Below are positions 195 to 56,162 of a stretch of DNA of 64,000 bases, one piece after another; position 1 is the first letter of the stretch, and every line of letters begins with the position of its first letter. The notes under the pieces were generated by a model. It saw only the letters and a program-made list of their open reading frames with translations. It was not told the origin of the DNA and did no database searches. Origin of the DNA: Picocystis sp. L7 (Eukaryota > Chlorophyta > Picocystophyceae > Picocystales > Picocystaceae); the NCBI GenBank assembly GCA_020975725.1, contig QXJR01000019.1, positions 124,001 through 188,000 on the forward strand, written 5' to 3'. The position numbers and the translations under genes are program-made.

Positions 195-1533
195 CTAGTG
201 TTTCCATCGTTCATTGCACATGGGTTGCAACTCGTTCCCGTCCTTGAGTCTGGGCCCCTTTTTGACTTGTACCAATTGCGCAACCAATGATCACAACGGC
301 AAATAAACTGCTCCAGGCATGAGGGGTGTGAGCAAGAAACCACGCCAAGGATTTTGGTCTGCCTTGTTCCAGTCATTCCTCTCCGGACGGTTGCTACAGC
401 AGATTTTCGGGTGCTGCATGGATTGTTTGTGTAGGTGGAGTTAGAAGGCACTTTTACTTTCATGATTTCCTTGGTATTGTACCTGTGTGAAGTTGGATGG
501 GTCTCCTACCCATGAAACACCGATCCCACTCGTTTGGTTGTGTTGGCAGCCGTTCTCGCTTGCCCACCCTGTATATCTTACCCCAAGTGGTTTGGATCCT
601 CTTCCATTTTGTATTCCCTCCTCTCGTTTCTGAATCAAGGATTCACACATGGGCTTGTTTCTTGCATGCATGCATGCCATCTTGTCACCTGTCCATCACA
701 TGGGTGAAGAAGATGAATATGCTCATCCTGTCCCTGGAATCCGCCGAGGTGCTACAGCCTACCCAACGCACCCCTCGAAGGGGGGCAGACGAATCCTCAA
801 AATTCGACGAGGGAAGAATACCCCAATCCAATACCCCCCTTTCGTCCAGGTTTCCTGGGATCTGGTCCGTCGGCCTTTCGAATGGGGACTACAGCCCATG
901 CCATGGGCCCCATGGCACCTTGGACAATGGATGGTGCATACTTGGAGACGGGATGCATCAACAGCATGCATCCGTTCCCACACATGCGGGTTGGACGGCA
1001 ACGCTGGAGACCGTGCCGTGGCACTTGGTTCCAGATCCAGGGTTGGATGGGCGGATTGTGTGTTTGTGTCCATCTGCCCTTCCACCACCAAACACCCACC
1101 ATCTCGTTGAGGACGGGTTGCATTTCGAAGGGAACCTTTCCTGTGTCTTCTGTGTCCCTTTCCTCAATCGTGCGACATGGCATGGCCTGTCCTCCTGCAG
1201 TTACACCCCTTCGTGTCCAGTTGCACCCTCGCGGTCCCCCAACCCTCGTCCCCAGCCCAGACACCACACCCCACCGGCAGACACACCCCGGTGGCCACGG
1301 TCCGATCCCTCCCTCCTTCGCTCGGGTCCCCGAGGCTCCCGGGTGTCGTGTGCACCAGTTGCACCCTCTTTTGTGCAAGACACACCCTCGCTGGGCCGCG
1401 TCGCGACGTGCTGCGCTTCTTTCGTCGCGTCGACGCTTCACGTGCGCGTAAAAGACTCCCTCTACGTGCTGGCACCGCACCTGAAAGGAAAAACGCGAAG
1501 AAAAAGCGCCCGGATCGGCCCAGTGGCGCGGGA
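195..1533. other. Intergenic: 3' flank of the left gene and promoter of the receptor kinase
   Basis: I see no convincing gene. The left half is of mixed composition, while the stretch from about 800 to the kinase start is strongly GC- and C-rich. Long open frames in this part cross in several phases on both strands and have arbitrary composition, so I read them as GC-driven shadows. One CACGTG palindrome lies at 1439-1444, about 90 bases upstream of the chosen kinase ATG. Confidence 0.5.
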
Positions 1534-4155
1534 ATGCGAACCGACGGGAGGAGATGGCGTGCTTTTTTGTTGCTTTGGATGTGGACGATGACCAAGCACG
1601 CCACTGGTCAAGACATGAGCGAAGTTGGCGACCTCCAAGGGGATGAGGTCGACCTGGAAGGCGTGGACGAGGAAGACAGCTGCGACGTGGCCGTAGAATA
1701 TACCACCGATGTGGTCTCCAATCCTGGAGGTGGATCTGCACTTCCCATGTTCCTAGGACAGGCCATCTTGGTCAACACTGCGTCCGAACCTGTGAAAGCA
1801 TGGGAGATGAAAGCCATGTTTCGGTACGATGAAACCATCACTCAAGACGGACTGTTTGGAGCGAGGATCTTGCCTCCAGAAGAAGATGCAGGACAAGACG
1901 GGACAGAAAACCCATCCAATGCGAGCATGGTCCATCTGGCCAGTCTTCCAGAAGAAACGCCGGCCATCACCGCAGGTGGACAGGGATCGTTCGTGTTCCT
2001 GGCCAGGCAAGGGAGGAGAGGCAACGGGGTACTGTCCAACCTCACCCTGAACGGGAAAACATGCAACATGCTCTGGGAAAGATTAAACGTGCAAAACCAA
2101 ACCCAAACCGAACGTGTGGCAGAAAGAGAAGCCGCCACTTCGGGGAATGTCCTGGTGGCCTATCGGGCTGCAGATTACGTATTCGCTGGACCTTACTGGA
2201 AGTTCTGGCAGGACTTCAACTTCACCATCGTGAACCGCCTGCACAGCGGCGGGCCCGTCAGGCTGGAAGATGTTCAGTTGTCCTATTGGTTTGAAGGGTC
2301 ACCCGGTGATTTTGAACCACAAAAGTACAGCTTCGTATGTCGCAATGCGGCCATTGGATGTCAGTACATCAAGGGAAACATCCTTAAAGGCCTAGAAGGA
2401 GAGAGTGGTGCCAAGTTTGAGCTGCGCATCTCTTTCGAGGCCGGTGCAGGAGAGCTGCCAGTTCCCCCCACTGGCCTGCAAGGGGAAGATCTGGTCCAGT
2501 TTTGGAGCCGCAACAGTGTGAATGGTGAAGGTGACGTAATCGGAATGGGCTGGGGAGCTACGGTGGGAATTGAAAGCAGCAACTTCTTGTTCTGGATGGA
2601 CGAAAAGCAGGACTACAGCTACGCCGCCCCGTTGGGAAGCACACTTCGGATCAATCCCCGCATGGTCGCCTACCTGGATGAGGAGAAGGAGTTTGGTATC
2701 CTGCCTGTGCCTGGCGGCTCGGATGCTGTTGATGCATCTGGTCCTGTCCTGTGCAAGCCCGGCGAGACCGGGTGCATGCTTTCTGCAGCTTATTGCTGTG
2801 CGTTTTCGAATGGCACGGAGGTTCCGCTGGTTCCTCCAGTAGAGAATGCTACACCGCCTGAAGCACTCTCTCCATCAGAGGATGATGCAGAGCTGGACCA
2901 GGACAGCGGTTCTACGTTCGAGTGGTGGTGGCTGGTCCTGGGGATTGGAGGTTCTATGGCTGCGCTGGGAGCATTGGCCTTTGGCTTTCATCGATACAGG
3001 CGCACCATTGCCGACGGTTTCCAAATGGCCTGGGATGGAAAGTCTCCTCTTTTCCCATCGTCCTCTGGTAGCGATGATTCACCAAATATGAAGAAGGGAA
3101 CCACTTTGCTTGGCAAGACTATTGATTCCTCACCCACCAGTACCCTGGAGCACGTAGCCGTGAGCTTGGATGGTTCGCGAGAGGGGAATCACGCAAGACA
3201 TCTCTCCCTCCTGGGCAGGGGAATGAACTTTTTGGTGGGGGATGCCCATTCCCCGGAAAATACCTTTCCTTCCATGCCAGAAATAAGCGCACCTGCACAA
3301 CTTTCTGATGCACCCAACGGAGTCGAAGTGCAGTTTCTGGAGGATGTCAAGTTGGAGAGATTTGTGGGACAAGGGGCTTTTGGAACAGTGTATCAAGGTT
3401 GGTGGGGTGACCAAAAAGTGGCGGTGAAGGTGCTGAGTTCAGATTTTGCTTCCGAGCAACAAAGGAATAGTCTGCATCGGGAGGTGCAAATTTTGAGTCG
3501 TTTGGATCATCCAAACATTGTGACCTTTTACGGGGCCTGTATGTTCCCTCCAGATTTCTGTATTGTAGAAGAATTGGTGGAGGGCGGGTCGTTGCATGCC
3601 GTATTGCATGACCAACACAGACCGCTATCATATGTGGAAGTTCTACGGCTGTGTCGAGACATTGCATGTGCGATGACCTACCTTCAGCCAACAGTGATTC
3701 ACAGAGATTTAAAGTCCCATAATGTCTTACTCACAACGGATGGTCATGCGAAAGTGTGCGACTTTGGCATAGCCAAGTTCAAGGAAGGGACCTACCTTAC
3801 ACTAAACACAGGGGGGATGGGAACGGCAGCATACATGGCTCCAGAACTTTTTTCATGCAAGAAAGTTACCGAGAAGTGTGACGTCTTCTCCTTTGGGGTC
3901 TTGCTATGGGAAATGATCACTAGGAGAGAGCCTTGGTCAGAGTTCACCAACTTCATGCAGTTCGTGATGATGGTAGGAGTGCAAAAGAAGCGATTACCAA
4001 TCCCGGATGAGTGCCCAAAGAAATTGAGGTCGATGATGCAAAGGTGCTGGTCCGATGATCCACACAAGCGACCGTCGTTTGCTGAGCTTCTTCGTAAATT
4101 CGACTTGTTGCTGAAGGATGTAGACCAGACGAATGTGTCTTCCAGTGAGACCTAA
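1534..4155 (+). CDS. Receptor-type TKL protein kinase with a CBM3-like (cellulose-binding-like) ectodomain
   Basis: This is an 873-residue type I membrane kinase. The ATG at 1534 opens a signal peptide (RWRAFLLLWMWTM followed by a small-residue stretch). The frame is open further upstream, but without a signal sequence. Residues about 30-200 form a beta-rich region (VNTASEPVKAWEMKAMFRYD, then LTLNGKTC) that could be another carbohydrate-binding sandwich. Residues about 205-394 follow the order of CBM3 modules: FTIVN, VRLEDVQLSYWF, FVCRNAAIGC, KFELRISFEAG, DEKQDYSY, RMVAYLDEEKEFG. A short Cys-rich stalk leads to a membrane span at about 464-486. The kinase domain is complete: GQGAFGTVYQG at 612, VAVKV with Lys632, HRDLKSHN with Asp725, DFG with Asp743, and YMAPEL. 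It resembles Raf/CTR1-like TKL kinases. The likely role is sensing wall polysaccharide at the surface and signalling inside. The ligand is inferred, not shown. Confidence 0.85.
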   Translation: MRTDGRRWRAFLLLWMWTMTKHATGQDMSEVGDLQGDEVDLEGVDEEDSCDVAVEYTTDVVSNPGGGSALPMFLGQAILVNTASEPVKAWEMKAMFRYDETITQDGLFGARILPPEEDAGQDGTENPSNASMVHLASLPEETPAITAGGQGSFVFLARQGRRGNGVLSNLTLNGKTCNMLWERLNVQNQTQTERVAEREAATSGNVLVAYRAADYVFAGPYWKFWQDFNFTIVNRLHSGGPVRLEDVQLSYWFEGSPGDFEPQKYSFVCRNAAIGCQYIKGNILKGLEGESGAKFELRISFEAGAGELPVPPTGLQGEDLVQFWSRNSVNGEGDVIGMGWGATVGIESSNFLFWMDEKQDYSYAAPLGSTLRINPRMVAYLDEEKEFGILPVPGGSDAVDASGPVLCKPGETGCMLSAAYCCAFSNGTEVPLVPPVENATPPEALSPSEDDAELDQDSGSTFEWWWLVLGIGGSMAALGALAFGFHRYRRTIADGFQMAWDGKSPLFPSSSGSDDSPNMKKGTTLLGKTIDSSPTSTLEHVAVSLDGSREGNHARHLSLLGRGMNFLVGDAHSPENTFPSMPEISAPAQLSDAPNGVEVQFLEDVKLERFVGQGAFGTVYQGWWGDQKVAVKVLSSDFASEQQRNSLHREVQILSRLDHPNIVTFYGACMFPPDFCIVEELVEGGSLHAVLHDQHRPLSYVEVLRLCRDIACAMTYLQPTVIHRDLKSHNVLLTTDGHAKVCDFGIAKFKEGTYLTLNTGGMGTAAYMAPELFSCKKVTEKCDVFSFGVLLWEMITRREPWSEFTNFMQFVMMVGVQKKRLPIPDECPKKLRSMMQRCWSDDPHKRPSFAELLRKFDLLLKDVDQTNVSSSET

Positions 4156-26407: not shown

Positions 26408-27907
26408 CTATTCCCAGTGTACATACGTTTCCGGAGTCTTTGCGATGGTGAAGGCCTTGACGGACTGGCGACAGATGGGACAGCTGAACAGATCTCGAAA
26501 CTGGCATTTGGAGAGACAAAGCTCGCATATCGTGTTGTGTCCGCAGGGCAGGCACCTGTACAGTCTTGGCCTGTCCATGCAGAGGAGGCAGTCCCTGGTG
26601 GATTCCCCCGATGCATGCTCCAGGGAGTGAAGGCGTGAGGACGACCTTTGGCCGGGAGTGACCATCTGCTCCAGCGTCGGCAGTACGTCCGACGAGTTCG
26701 GGCGGTCTGCAGGGTCCGCCAGGGTGCATCTCTGCGCCATTTCGCAAAGCACGTCCAGGTGTTCTGCAGGCCACTTGCTCAGCCTCGGTGACAACCCATT
26801 GAGGGACACCTCCAAGGCGGAAGAAGGCCGAGCTTGGGAGGAGACAGCATCGACCAAGTTTCTACACGCCGGAGGCCTGGCAGGATCAAAGGCTAGCACG
26901 CCCGTGATGAGTTCGAGCAAGACCACTCCAAAGGCATACACATCCACCTTTGGGCCGATCGAGCCCGTGGTTTCGTACTCCGGAGCCATGTAACCCGAGG
27001 TTCCTTCGGCCCTGTCACCTTGTTCCAAGTCTGACGGACTCTCGTCCTGGTCGAAATGCAACAGACAGGAAGTGCCAAAGTCCGCAAGGCGCGCTCGATA
27101 TTCGGTGTCCAGCAGCACGTTGGATGTTTTCAGGTCCCTGTGGATCACTGGAGGGCTTGCTCTCTCGTGCAGGTACACCAAGGCTTCTGCAATATCCAGG
27201 GCCACGTTCTCGCTCTCTTCCCAAGTAAGCATACCGAGCCTATCTTCCAAGGACCCTCCCCCCATATAGTCGAACAGCAGCGCGTAGATACCGTCCTCGT
27301 TGCAAGCGCCGCGAAACGGCACCAGGTTCGGATGTTCGAGGGACATGAGCGTCTTCACTTCTTGCCAGTATCGTTGCTTGCTGGTGGAGTTTGTGATGTC
27401 GATCTTCTTGACGGCAAACATTCTTCTTTCTGCGAACTTGGCCTTGTACACGGTGCCATGGGATCCCGAGCCTATGACGGCGGCATCGTCGAATTGGTTG
27501 GTGGCTTGCTTCAGTTCCTTGAGTGTGAAGATTCCATTGTGATCGTCTCGAAACGGGGGCCATTCGTGGGGTCCTTCCAGTGCTGGTGTGCCCGTTCTCG
27601 CTGAATTGACCCCCGCCTGATTTCTGGCCGCTTGCATTTGCTCCATCCTTCTGGTGTTGCACAGGTGGACCAGTATCCCGAGCAGCACCAGTCCTCCAAC
27701 GATCCCGATGATGATTCCCGCCACCGTTCCCAGGTCTGCTTCGCAGTAGCACACCCCATCTTGGATGGTGCACCTGCTGATCCCTCCACACGTGATGGGG
27801 CACGCTCCGTCGCAGTCGTCTGCCTTGGCTCTTGTCGTTTGAAGCACGAGCAGTCCCCACAGCATCCACGCCTCGTATCCCAGGTCCGTTCGGGTCCGAG
27901 GATGCAT
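26408..27907 (-). CDS. RLK/Pelle-type receptor kinase with a C-terminal RING finger
   Basis: 499 residues from an ATG at 27907. A signal sequence (MLWGLLVLQTTRAKA) is followed by a very short Cys-rich ectodomain of about 30 residues (CDGACPITCGG, CYCEADLG) and one membrane span (VAGIIIGIVGGLVLLGILVHL). The kinase domain has a glycine loop GSGSHGTVYKA at about 146, the invariant Lys in FAVKKI, the RLK/Pelle-style catalytic loop HRDLKTSNVLLD, LADFGTS and YMAPEY. Residues 440-499 form a C3HC4 RING: CLLC, CGHNTICELC, CPIC. A ligase domain fused to the tail of a receptor kinase suggests coupled phosphorylation and ubiquitination at the plasma membrane. All catalytic residues I can check are present. 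A small-residue N-terminal extension before MLWGLL may not be translated. Confidence 0.87.
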   Translation of the reverse strand: MHPRTRTDLGYEAWMLWGLLVLQTTRAKADDCDGACPITCGGISRCTIQDGVCYCEADLGTVAGIIIGIVGGLVLLGILVHLCNTRRMEQMQAARNQAGVNSARTGTPALEGPHEWPPFRDDHNGIFTLKELKQATNQFDDAAVIGSGSHGTVYKAKFAERRMFAVKKIDITNSTSKQRYWQEVKTLMSLEHPNLVPFRGACNEDGIYALLFDYMGGGSLEDRLGMLTWEESENVALDIAEALVYLHERASPPVIHRDLKTSNVLLDTEYRARLADFGTSCLLHFDQDESPSDLEQGDRAEGTSGYMAPEYETTGSIGPKVDVYAFGVVLLELITGVLAFDPARPPACRNLVDAVSSQARPSSALEVSLNGLSPRLSKWPAEHLDVLCEMAQRCTLADPADRPNSSDVLPTLEQMVTPGQRSSSRLHSLEHASGESTRDCLLCMDRPRLYRCLPCGHNTICELCLSKCQFRDLFSCPICRQSVKAFTIAKTPETYVHWE

Positions 27908-28337
27908 CGTGTTGGACGTGTCTGGGTCTGGATGGGTGATCTATGGTTCGGTTCGCGGTGGGACGGGACCTACCTTCGTGGACCTGTTCGCAGGTTGCAC
28001 TGGATGTGTTTCCACGATCCCTTTCGATCCTGTTTCCTCTCGATTCGCTCCTGTGTGGTGCATGGCCTGCTTCGCAACCGAAGGTACGTCCCAGTGGCCA
28101 AGGGTCGGTGCTCACCGGATCCGAAACCCGTCCTCCAGGGTGAGTGACCCGAAAAAGGGAAGGAAGGTGGACGAAACCAAGGACCAAGGTGAACACCCCG
28201 TCCATCCCGAGAGATCCTGGTCCATGCTTGTGAGGCGCACCGTAGAGACATCGTGACGTGGCTACGAGACGATGTCGACACTGTGCGGGGATTCCGGGGA
28301 AGGACAAGAGGGCGGTGGAGTGCTTGCGATGAAAGGC
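27908..28337. other. Promoter region of the kinase-RING gene
   Basis: GC-rich 430 bp between the minus-strand kinase start and copy B of the dispersed repeat. Frames here are shadows. A CACGTG site lies just inside the gene at 27789-27794. Confidence 0.4.
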
Positions 28338-32317: not shown

Positions 32318-35300
32318 TCATGAACGGCGAAACCAAGAAAACCTGCGTTTGGGAGGCGTAGCAACCGCCAATGCAGAGTCCTCACCAGACTTGGAAGACG
32401 TTCGACCCAGAAGCTGACGCACAGCACGACGCATGCCCCCACGTACGAACGCAGCAGCGATCTCCCAATACTTTTCTGTCGCCGCTTGACGGCATTCGGA
32501 TAACACAGCAGCTGCCAACTGGAAGGGAGGCCTCAAAGCACGCTGCACCCTCACACTTGGGAGTGAAAGAGGGACATCGTCTGCAGAAATCCCTCGCATC
32601 TGCACAGACAAAGTCACGGAAGAGCGCTCAATACGCAAGTCTTCTACGTATACAAACTCGGCAAAACGATCTTCCATAAAGTGAGGACCGTCATTCATGG
32701 TGAAATCTGACGCCAGCCTCTGTCGAAGCTCTAATGCAATTTGTGGCATAATGCCCCGGTCTACAAATTCAGGTGTTTCATCTGTGTCCCAAGAGAGGCC
32801 CTCTGACCAGCTCTCTGCAATGTAGCGAAGCCTAGTAATGCCCTTCTCATCAATGGACACCTCGAGGTCGGGAAAGCGTAGAGAAATGAGCTTGAAGAGA
32901 GAGGTTCCACCAGGATCGGCTTCCCTGAGCTTCTGTTCCACAGCAAGCCGCAGAATGCCTCCAGTCCCAGACTTGCTGCTAGCAATCACGGGAAAACGGG
33001 TCTGAGCCGAGCGGTGTTCAATCTGCAGCCGTCCAACCAGTGCCTGCATGATGCGTCTGTTCTTCCTCGTGTCACAGCTTAGCTGAACAGAACCAAGCTC
33101 TGTATAAAGAACTGGATAGAGATGCTGCCCATTGCTATCAGTGTGCTTGCGCTGTTCAGGTTTCTCCATAAGTAATTCAATACGAACGCTCTCAACTTTG
33201 GCCATGACAAGAAAAGAGCCTAACTCTTTTGGTGGTGTACTGATGGCTCTTGACCCATCATCGCTCTCTTTCACTAGTTCGCCAGTAGGAGAAACGGGGC
33301 CGTTTACTTCTAACACAAAGCTTCCCTTCTCAGGAACTACCCGCAGTTCCAATTGTGAGCCCTGTGTTCGCCCAGCCAGAAGTTTAGTTGTTTCTGCCTC
33401 TAAGTTGTGCATGTCGATGAGGGCAACAATGCTTGGGCGAGAGCTGCCAAACTGCCATTGGCATGGCCAGACACGTAGAGTCGGAGCTGCACACGGATCC
33501 TGCCACACAATGTCGACATGGCTTTGAGCATCAACAACCTCTACTTCGCTTCCAAAAGGAAGCTCCTGACAAAATGCCAGCGCTATACTACTGTGGTTCG
33601 AGATGCGATACATGCCCCTGCACTGCGAAGTGAACTCCTGAACATGGACAATTTGCGTAGCAGATTCACTTGGTGACTCCAAGACAATCTGATACTTTGG
33701 CCATTGAGGCATATCTCTGCCTTCTATGGGAAGCCTCAAAAGCACGGATCCTGTATCATAAGGTGAAAATGGAACGGAAGGTTGACCATCCGGTTTGCTG
33801 ACAGCAAGCCTGGTTTGTGTGAGCTCGCCTTCAAGATAGCAAGGTTCTGCAGTATTTGATGGCAGGCTAGGCAATAAAGGACAAAAAGTGGCACTAGCAG
33901 TATCAGTATTGGCATTTCTGCCCTCTGCAGAATAAGTACTGCTACCAGCTGGAACATCCAACTGCCAAATTTTGAGCTCTTCACCTGTTGCATTATGCAC
34001 AATGCACTGGGGACTTAAAATGAACACTTGACTATCTTTAAATATGTTGCGTTCAGGTCTTGAGAGCCCAAGAGCAACATGAATAGGATGGGTGTAAACC
34101 AACTTGGGACCGACCGATAGGCTGTCATTGGTGAGAATAGACGAAAGTGCATCGCTTGAACCTGCCATCCTAAGCGCAATGTCCAAGCTAGATCCAATCG
34201 GCTGGAACTCGCTTACAATGCTTGGACGCTCGTGCGGCTGTGTCACAAAGGACTGGCTGTTTGCTCCCAGAGTCGCTTCTGCAGCTTCTTTGCCGCCTTG
34301 CCATTCCTGGTCTAACAAGGCAGCAACATCTGCATTCTGGTTCTGCAGGTGACACTCAAGGGGGAAGCCGCACATGTTCACAATCCAAAATGAAGACCAT
34401 ATCTTAGCAACGACTGTATTGTGCTCGTAGTGGTAATCTACTGACAGATTAACATAGAGAAGCCCATTAGGGTGATCAACGGATGCAACAGAAAGGGTTT
34501 GCTCTGCTTTCTCAAGAGGTACCGGAGAAAAGTTTGACCAGGAAGGGTTCCCTCCTGGGCTGCCCAGGCAAAACCGCAGGAACAAATTCCTGAATATTTC
34601 CACCTCGTCTACACTGGCAATCTCTCCAGACTGGAGTGAAGCGCTTGCGCTCTGGGGATTGACATCGCTGAGGAGCGACCTGCCTCCTAAAACCCGTGTC
34701 TTAACCTTCTCAGGGGGCACAGGAAGCCCCAGCAGCTCAACCCCTACATCTTCAGGAAGAGCATTGCATAGTAGAATAGGTGGAGTTAACTCTAGAGTAA
34801 CAGTCTTGCATTTCCGCACATTCTGAAGAGCTTCCACAACGGCACCTGGTTCAGGACATGGATTCATGAAGCATGACATCTTCCAGGACAAGTAGGCATT
34901 GGCTTCAAAAAACTTGTAGGCAACCTCACTGGGTGAAGCCTTCAGGTTGACCGAGAAATGCACCGGCTCCATTTGAAGTGAGCCTGTTTCAGAGGAAGGC
35001 ATCCTGTGTGAAAACGAGTAGGGAAGATCCTTCTCCTCAACTCTTTTGAGTTCAAGAAATTTTCCATGGACCCAATGCTCCGGCTTTAATTTACTGCACA
35101 ATTCTGCAGGAAGGATGCAAAGACTCTTGTCAGTGTGTGCTAACACAGGGAAGGGCAAACATTCTCCTGGTTGGAAGTTTCCTAGCACTTCAACGTTTTC
35201 AATAGGATGTTCAGACTCCTCTGTAGCTCCAGTGTGGACAAGGGCTCCACAAAGTGAAGTGGACGTAAGATTTGTCACGACCAGATGTGGAAGAATGCAA

Positions 35301-54794: not shown

Positions 54795-56162
54795 CTAAAC
54801 ATACGTGCAGAGGACACCTGCCTGCATGGCAGCATTGAGAATCATAAACTCTACCTGAGTTTCTTTGGTGCTCCGGGCCGGGGCGTGTTCTCCTGACCAC
54901 CAGTAATAATTTGTTCCTTTCTTTGCACTGCCAGGTTTCAACACCCCGGAGCCGTACACATGCACTTCCTGACACAGGTTTGATCGAAGAACAGTGATTA
55001 CCCCCAGGAGAAGAGGCGATTCCAAGTCGAACGCGTTGTCACCCAAGTCTGAGGTGCCCATGCTTACCAATCGATGGAGCCACTCGTGAACGGCATCACT
55101 AGCTCCCCCAAGCAGTGACAGGACCGGTTTTCCATTCAGGACAGGGAAACTCCGATTGTAGGCGGTGCTCATGTACAACCTCATGCTTTCAAAGTGAAGC
55201 GGAGGTCTGGCCTTCTTCCTGGTGATGAGCGCTTTCCTTGGCTCTCCCATGAAGGTGACATCCGTTTTGTATCCAACGTCCTCTTGGAACCCTAAGACTG
55301 GTGGACTGTTCGCGTAGAAGGCACGTTTGCCGCTGTCTGTGTACCACTGTCCGATTCTAATCACCGTGTCGTGCTCATTGATGTCATAACCATTGCGTAT
55401 ATCAATGATGCTTTGATCGTTCCCCACAATGGCACAACGCCCCCACGGATGCGCTTTTTCAAGAGAGAAGCGTGGCAAAAGCCGTAGCTTGACCATGGTT
55501 CTTTTGCCGTTCCCTGCAGCGACTTCCATGCTCCCTTTGCGACAGTCGTATTCGTTTTTTTTACCGCATATGCAGTGCCTCATCAGCAGAGAGCAATCCG
55601 TGGCGTTCTTCCAGCGGTGGGTTTCGAAGAATGCTTTCATCTGCTTCATAATGTTTCTGTGTTTTGGATCATTTACCAGTGTTTCCAAGTATCCCAGGTG
55701 GTGCACCGTGCTGTCTCCGTGATCCTTGCATTGTTTCTCGGCACGCGTGATGTTCCACAGCTTTTCCCTGTCTTTCCCGAGTAGGATATCTGTTCCCTGT
55801 TCTCGACCAAGCAAGAGCCAGTGATCGAGGTCTTTCTCGTCTTCGCTGGACACGTGTGGATTCGTGTCTCTTTTCTTCCTTCCTGTACGATGGTGCGTGG
55901 ACTTGCCGGTGGTGAAGACGTCGCTGATGTTGTATCTGTTTCCGGAGTAGCTGAGTGCGTCGCTGACGAGCAGCATGACGAGCGCCACGACGGACGCCAT
56001 GCTCAAGTAGATGACGCTCCTGGTGCACACGAGTGCTTTTTCTTCCTCGTCGAGATCGTTTTCGAAGAAGGCGGTGGAATCGATCCACAGGCTCTGTCTC
56101 TCCGCTTCTGGTCCCGTCCCTTGTTCCACGTGTTCCTGGGCCATCCTTGACGCCCTTTCCAT
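54795..56162 (-). CDS. GT29 sialyltransferase-like glycosyltransferase, Golgi type II membrane protein
   Basis: 455 residues from the ATG at 56162. A cytoplasmic tail of about 45 residues leads to one membrane span (SVIYLSMASVVALVMLLVSD) and a lumenal domain. The large sialyl motif is seen as HPWGRCAIVGNDQSIIDIRN followed by GYDINEHDTVIRIG. The small motif is LLGVITVLRSNLCQEVHVYG. The C-terminal part has the His of the very-small motif region (SGEHAPARSTKETQVEF). Several N-glycosylation sequons occur. GT29 enzymes in animals transfer sialic acid from CMP-donors. Plant and algal members have uncertain donors, such as Kdo or related sugars, so the acceptor and donor are unknown here. Conserved Cys residues in the two motifs support a folded enzyme. 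Confidence 0.85.
   Translation of the reverse strand: MERASRMAQEHVEQGTGPEAERQSLWIDSTAFFENDLDEEEKALVCTRSVIYLSMASVVALVMLLVSDALSYSGNRYNISDVFTTGKSTHHRTGRKKRDTNPHVSSEDEKDLDHWLLLGREQGTDILLGKDREKLWNITRAEKQCKDHGDSTVHHLGYLETLVNDPKHRNIMKQMKAFFETHRWKNATDCSLLMRHCICGKKNEYDCRKGSMEVAAGNGKRTMVKLRLLPRFSLEKAHPWGRCAIVGNDQSIIDIRNGYDINEHDTVIRIGQWYTDSGKRAFYANSPPVLGFQEDVGYKTDVTFMGEPRKALITRKKARPPLHFESMRLYMSTAYNRSFPVLNGKPVLSLLGGASDAVHEWLHRLVSMGTSDLGDNAFDLESPLLLGVITVLRSNLCQEVHVYGSGVLKPGSAKKGTNYYWWSGEHAPARSTKETQVEFMILNAAMQAGVLCTYV

Follow-up and report, generated by a model that had tools for sequence, protein, structure and literature searches.

The anti-sigma factors of the RsgI family use extracellular carbohydrate-binding modules (CBMs) as polysaccharide sensors, and PMC4711584 and PMC12484212 place a CBM3 in RsgI1, RsgI2 and RsgI4. 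The known plant wall sensors carry malectin, WAK, LysM or lectin ectodomains (PMC10139151), and the same text presents CORK1 as a malectin-type receptor kinase that answers cello-oligomers. How cells sense the state of their walls is an open question. Cellulose-binding modules of the CBM3 and CBM2 types are mainly bacterial, and the kinases of plant malectin-type receptors belong to the RLK/Pelle group. Here we describe a gene of the green alga Picocystis sp. L7 at positions 1534–4155 (plus strand) of a 64,000-nucleotide window (contig QXJR01000019.1, 124,001–188,000, assembly GCA_020975725.1), which encodes a predicted single-pass receptor kinase of the tyrosine kinase-like (TKL) group with a CBM2-like and a CBM3-derived module in its ectodomain.

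The predicted receptor shares with RsgI1, RsgI2 and RsgI4 of Clostridium thermocellum an extracellular CBM3, a membrane span and a cytoplasmic signalling part (PMC4711584). However, the RsgI proteins are bacterial and of reversed topology, with the CBM at the C-terminus; their inner part binds a sigma factor, whereas that of the algal protein is a kinase, and in the RsgI table of the same source the CBM3 stands alone, without a CBM2-like partner. Pfam and NCBIfam scans of the algal protein found neither the RsgI family nor the RsgI-N sigma-binding domain. CORK1, too, is a receptor kinase that perceives wall signals through an ectodomain resembling a carbohydrate module (PMC10139151), but that ectodomain combines leucine-rich repeats with malectin, and the algal kinase, judged by eye, resembles algal TKL kinases of the Raf/MLK-like type. 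By analogy, the algal protein would act like RsgI and CORK1 yet be a member of neither family. Full-text literature searches, in a collection drawn mostly from outside subscription journals and judged largely by titles and abstracts, turned up no CBM3 joined to a receptor kinase, and the accessible portion of PMC10762512 contains nothing on receptors. An ectodomain search of 5.77 billion proteins (E ≤ 0.001; 7994 candidates scored) returned just two proteins, this gene's own product and P0002, its orthologue from a different source, in keeping with the preliminary description of this locus, made from the sequence alone, which had called the architecture unusual. The CBM3 piece used alone as a protein query gave no match at E ≤ 10 among 102 candidates, and of 447 stretches of viral contigs that fitted a pattern, none was confirmed as a relative.

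Residues 204–394 of the ectodomain (2143–2715) are homologous to CBM3, and four routes agree on this. First, the bare sequence compared with the PDB by phmmer matched the CBM3 chain 2wnx at E 4.2e-8. Second, a hidden Markov model (HMM) of 80 bacterial CBM3s, the best of 579 loci, gave the frame 23.1 bits, whereas none of the window's other 488 six-frame open reading frames (ORFs) scored above 2.2 and none of 5000 ectodomain shuffles above 9.2. Third, hhalign scored 53 against at most 21.3 in 60 shuffles. Fourth, the modelled module adopts the CBM3 beta-sandwich: its top Foldseek match is CBM3b′ of Cel9V (2wnx/2wo4/2wob; among the best 50 of 462), and a second fold comparison ranked the RsgI-like CBM3 4b97 highest by Z, with six further structures lying within 1 of it (among the best 50 of 670); 4b9c, 4b9p, and 4b96 from C. 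clariflavum also appear among these best matches. Cel9V, which thus provides both the best single-sequence match and the top fold match, is a glycoside hydrolase family 9 (GH9) enzyme without membrane span or kinase. The CBM3 match falls in two collinear blocks: 240–309 scores 20.0 bits, while 357–390 scores 0.8 bits by itself and 3.0 bits in the orthologue, and the stretch that joins the two holds some 27 extra residues. The CBM3 likeness and block order claimed from sequence alone both hold, above chance. At residues 229–285 Pfam shows no family other than PF00942. The module is 90% identical between the orthologues (172/191 residues) compared with 42% in the adjoining linker (10/24), and is therefore under constraint; it is kept almost as firmly as the predicted kinase domain (236/253).

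Chance resemblance to CBM3 by an unrelated beta fold, or a chimeric gene created in assembly, would be consistent with a PF00942 score that stays below the curated cut-off of 22.4 bits (16.6 in the whole protein, 19.4 for the piece alone and 20.6 in the genome search). It could also draw on the structural models, given that an AlphaFold2 model of the complete ectodomain, built on just three algal sequences, was discarded at a predicted local distance difference test (pLDDT) score of 33, and that the good model relied on the bacterial CBM3 alignment. Against it stand the decoy and shuffle tests, the phmmer match obtained from the bare sequence, a full-length orthologue of the same architecture and ordinary eukaryotic neighbours, and we regard this explanation as close to refuted.

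The preliminary description had suspected a second carbohydrate module N-terminal of the CBM3, and residues 50–178 (1681–2067; Cys50 at the start, Cys177 in the NG-x-T-C end; 103/129 identical to the orthologue) indeed resemble CBM2. An hhalign comparison of the two algal rows with a CBM2 profile gave E 1.5e-5 and a score of 35.8, where 40 shuffles reached at most 20.9; with the two rows of a paralogue added, the score rose to 47.2 against at most 18.4 for shuffles. The profile held 12 rows from 13 loci (L102, below the cut-off, was excluded), of which 11 are CBM2 and one, from L103, is linker. As a control, the CBM3 part had no significant match to the CBM2 profile (probability 0.09). Other searches gave little: the single sequence reached 9.6 bits against the CBM2 HMM, where 5000 shuffles went up to 9.2; a Pfam scan of the N-terminal region alone yielded no match, and a PDB search of it one unrelated match at E 0.6; and a first hhalign of the region against the paralogue module (probability 0.4) and the CBM3 rows (1.0) showed nothing. 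The module shares with most bacterial rows of CBM2 (PF00553) an N-T..W core, a GG-x-x-x-F strand and an NG-x-x-C end. It differs in exceeding the length of the 104-position profile by about 25 residues and in having no Trp at the other conserved Trp positions of the bacterial rows; its sole Trp, W90, aligns with the core Trp (N-x-G-W). The tryptophans that we take to face the ligand in CBM2 were not found in residues 50–178. We therefore call this segment CBM2-like rather than CBM2, an assignment carried by the profile alignment and by collinearity with the paralogue.

The paralogue (L013; contig C1, complement 669–3218; 849 aa) is the best other match to the gene in the 20.5 Mb, 30-contig assembly. 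Its kinase is 50% identical over 292 residues (53% over residues 591–856 in the genome search) and, by eye, it has a hydrophobic N-terminus, one span and the YCC stalk motif. The first modules of the two proteins are collinear, sharing the starting Cys, an N-x4-P-x3-W core, a GG-x3-F strand and the NG-x-T-C end. That of the paralogue is a borderline CBM2, at 23.9 bits, 24.4 with neighbours in the genome search and 19.7 in the whole-protein scan for a cut-off of 24, and its best PDB match is a secreted cellulose-binding protein (6f7e, E 0.001); the second module, at about residues 236–420, is without an assigned family. Relatives of the paralogue occur elsewhere at 99% and 84% identity. In the genome, PF00942 (E ≤ 1) and PF00553 (E ≤ 10) each mark one locus, and both loci are receptor kinases. 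A single-protein search with the paralogue's CBM2 module brought up one further, weak CBM2-like stretch, on contig C7 (L114, 717628–717768; E 0.08, 36% over about 50 aa), which contains an internal stop and may be due to chance.

In the CBM3-derived module the residues expected to contact cellulose are for the most part changed. A column that is Asp in 60 of 60 bacterial rows (the structure alignment took 60 of the 80) is Arg270 here, and one that is Trp in 58 of 60 is Asn271; the Tyr-bearing loop of CipA is absent, as in most rows shown. Because hmmalign put only the 240–309 block in place, leaving out the first strand and the second half, and MAFFT displaces the first strand, the register is uncertain beyond that block, above all at 310–356. 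In the modelled, uncertain register an invariant Trp column falls on Trp340 and an invariant Arg column on Asp334. Trp340 would then occupy what we take, in CipA numbering, to be the Trp118 position of CBM3a, a place that Trp354 takes by eye in another register. If the modelled register is right, the ion pair is retained between Arg270 and Asp334 with its charges swapped. In the calcium site Asp360 is kept, and the YYYT-x-D loop has Glu254 in place of its Thr and Ser256 in place of its Asp. Overall, the planar cellulose-contact strip of His/Trp, Tyr, Trp and an Arg–Asp pair, as set out in section 6 of PMC12484212, was not recovered in the algal module. Several aromatic residues are nevertheless invariant in the orthologue, two of them in the first loop (W222, W225) and five in the extra region (F323, W324, F351, F353, W354). 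The preliminary description had staked its reading on the survival of surface aromatics, and a complete loss was not shown: a Trp at the Trp118 position is possible and aromatic stretches lie at 221–228 and 310–356. The contact residues proper, however, are mostly replaced. Since these aromatics are invariant, and since a C. thermocellum CBM3 biosensor with too few key aromatics prefers xylan (PMC12484212, section 6, citing Hershko Rimon 2021), glycan binding may have been altered rather than lost.

Crystalline cellulose of the cell's own wall, gripped by a flat CBM3 face so that the kinase reports wall state, is a candidate ligand insofar as binding cellulose is the classic role of both CBM3 and CBM2, a Trp can occupy the Trp118 position and the aromatics of the first loop and extra region are unchanged in the orthologue. 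This is difficult to reconcile with an Arg–Asn pair where the bacterial modules have Asp–Trp, and with the wall-gene inventory described below, and we consider it unlikely. The same substitutions bear on a different proposal, that both CBM folds were re-used for protein binding or self-association, with a peptide, an adhesion partner or a second receptor copy, and that no glycan is bound. Canonical contact residues are changed in both modules, and the six N-glycosylation motifs, four of them common to the orthologue (169, 188, 229 and 426), would crowd the surface. In addition, a shallow groove of CBM3 has been discussed as a peptide or linker site, with nine residues named in PMC4579020; by our mapping, Tyr361, Tyr380 and Pro391 are kept and Trp252 is aromatic, four positions are changed (Ser250, Glu296, Arg298 and Lys385), and one is unmapped. 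Yet it would be an odd coincidence for both paralogous receptors to carry relatives of cellulose modules if glycan binding had been lost, and the conserved aromatics at 221–228 and 310–356 could form a binding face. On balance we judge binding of protein in place of glycan to be rather improbable.

The same assembly provided a wall-gene inventory. No cellulose synthase of family PF03552 was found at E ≤ 0.001, in a search that did pick up matches in 3 of 14 control genomes. A GH9 search at E ≤ 1 was equally negative, allowing that genes with many introns or absent from the assembly could be missed. A genome search with PF13632 found two GT2 genes, one of which (L011, complement 1021–2580; PF13632 and PF13641) is by motif, judged by eye, a CslA/C-like synthase; it scores 102 bits against a CelA cut-off of 699. 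Green algae possess a CslA/C-related clade of unknown function, CslK (PMC3797821), of which L011 is a possible member. Three PF00150 (GH5) genes are present, L110, L111 and L112. Both of those compared with the PDB, L110 and L112, had endo-beta-1,4-mannanases (9m20 and 1rh9) as their top matches, with best E values of 4e-78 and 1.1e-67, and L111 was judged by eye only. Given endo-mannanase genes and a CslA/C-like synthase, and no PF03552 or GH9 found, a mannan-type polymer is inferred to be the more economical own-wall ligand. The earlier proposal that the alga reads the state of a cellulose wall through this receptor thus finds no support in either the inventory or the contact residues, both of which make cellulose sensing less likely than sensing of another beta-glycan. 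On contig C15, L111 and L112 are separated by about 3 kb, and some 6 kb from them is a kinase gene (L005) that also matches the query kinase.

We therefore favour, at a probability of roughly 0.45, a receptor kinase whose ligand is an extracellular beta-1,4-glycan belonging to the alga's own covering, more likely of mannan type than crystalline cellulose. The protein would be a type I membrane receptor that holds the CBM2-like and CBM3-derived modules in tandem outside the cell on a cysteine-rich stalk. The modules would dock on the beta-1,4-linked polysaccharide of the covering, and ligand occupancy, clustering or strain on the receptor under tension would switch on the TKL kinase, whose output would be a wall-status signal. 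The gene, its domain homologies and conservation, the paralogue and the wall-gene inventory are observed; what we infer is which ligand is bound, how the receptor is activated, which pathway follows downstream and that the protein sits at the cell surface, and the ectodomain ligand may be regarded as putative. Several points weigh against this proposal. Near-invariant CBM3 contact residues are replaced by Arg270 and Asn271, and the only Trp of the CBM2-like module, W90, corresponds to a core Trp, so that the ability to bind glycan could be gone from either module. The mannan idea comes from the gene inventory, and the best-scoring solved structures for L011 are cellulose synthases, so that its product could be a glucan.

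A glycan ligand might also come from outside, in that the receptor could respond to polysaccharide that bacteria, neighbours or surfaces present (cellulose, mannan or exopolysaccharide), much as RsgI responds to biomass. The RsgI-type CBM3s, as described in the papers cited above, sense the outside world, and with no CesA of its own found, any cellulose the alga met would be foreign. The nine window ORFs scanned give no hint of a degradation programme, an argument of little weight in eukaryotes, where gene order says little, and we see a foreign ligand as an outside chance. A further reading extends the own-covering receptor to a two-gene algal family, with CBM2-like and CBM3 modules here and a CBM2-like module plus another in the paralogue. 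Bacterial-type cellulose modules would have been joined to a kinase and re-tooled for a mannan-based wall, the contact strip being rebuilt through the Arg270–Asp334 swap (if the register holds) and the new aromatic stretches. We hold this to be possible but doubtful; if true, it would mean that walls can be sensed in a way that does not depend on receptors of the malectin, WAK or lectin kinds. An alga without detected CesA or GH9 has two paralogous kinases with cellulose-module-related outer parts, and if a wall glycan is bound, they would offer a small, tractable system of defined domains for studying how green algae sense polysaccharides, and a eukaryotic counterpart of RsgI.

The gene is open for 873 codons; a longer alternative frame would begin at an upstream ATG at 1177, but we place the start at 1534 because P0002 (874 aa; 83% identical across the ectodomain, 84% in the full-length alignment) begins at the same Met. 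All parts lie on the plus strand. The putative signal peptide (residues 1–25, 1534–1608; 14/25 identical to P0002), assigned by eye from a hydrophobic N-terminus, is followed by an acidic, poorly conserved linker (26–49, 1609–1680). An inter-module segment (179–203, 2068–2142; 23/25 identical) separates the two modules, and the stalk (2716–2919; 56/68 identical) has four cysteines (407, 414, 421 and 422) and the YCC motif common to the paralogue; the other ectodomain cysteines, for a total of eight, are at 50, 177, 269 and 276. A single transmembrane span is predicted at about residues 463–485 (2920–2988), as 19-residue hydropathy windows above 1.5 begin only at 465–468. The juxtamembrane region (486–604, 2989–3345; 93/119 identical) leads to a TKL-type kinase domain (605–857, 3346–4104; PF07714, E 3.4e-69 over residues 606–855) with Lys632 of VAVK, HRD 723–725 and DFG 743–745 in place, and a short C-terminal tail with the stop (4105–4155; 9/16 identical) completes the protein. 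Signal peptide, single span and intact TKL kinase are thus as the preliminary description had them. An NCBIfam scan matched 16 families, none on the ectodomain, with a weak PVV-CTERM match (E 0.32) over the membrane span; a methyl-CpG Pfam match and matches to peptide deformylase, Fab and PH0802 were rejected as chance.

The window contains 38 ORFs of at least 250 aa, of which nine neighbours of the gene were scanned with profiles. Seven belong to ordinary families (histidine acid phosphatase, TRAPPC13, P450, NAD-binding protein, TPR, GT29 and SET), one is without a match, and the other, at 26411–27907 (minus strand), is a kinase with a RING finger fused C-terminally. The GT29 match, at 54798–56162 (minus strand), is to the sialyltransferase family (E 7.6e-14) and seems unusual in an alga. 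The assembly carries a Rubisco small-subunit gene on the large contig C6, which extends past 800 kb, and a search for a phycobilisome linker gave none; both observations favour the green line. Elsewhere in the genome, the kinase L004 (1114–2883, plus strand) has, by eye, an apparent span and a short cysteine-rich outer part, which suggests that the alga has several receptor-like TKL kinases. On contig C10, two kinase matches of equal score, at 27511–28287 (minus strand) and 33092–33868 (plus strand), contain one in-frame TGA each and perhaps reflect an inverted duplication.

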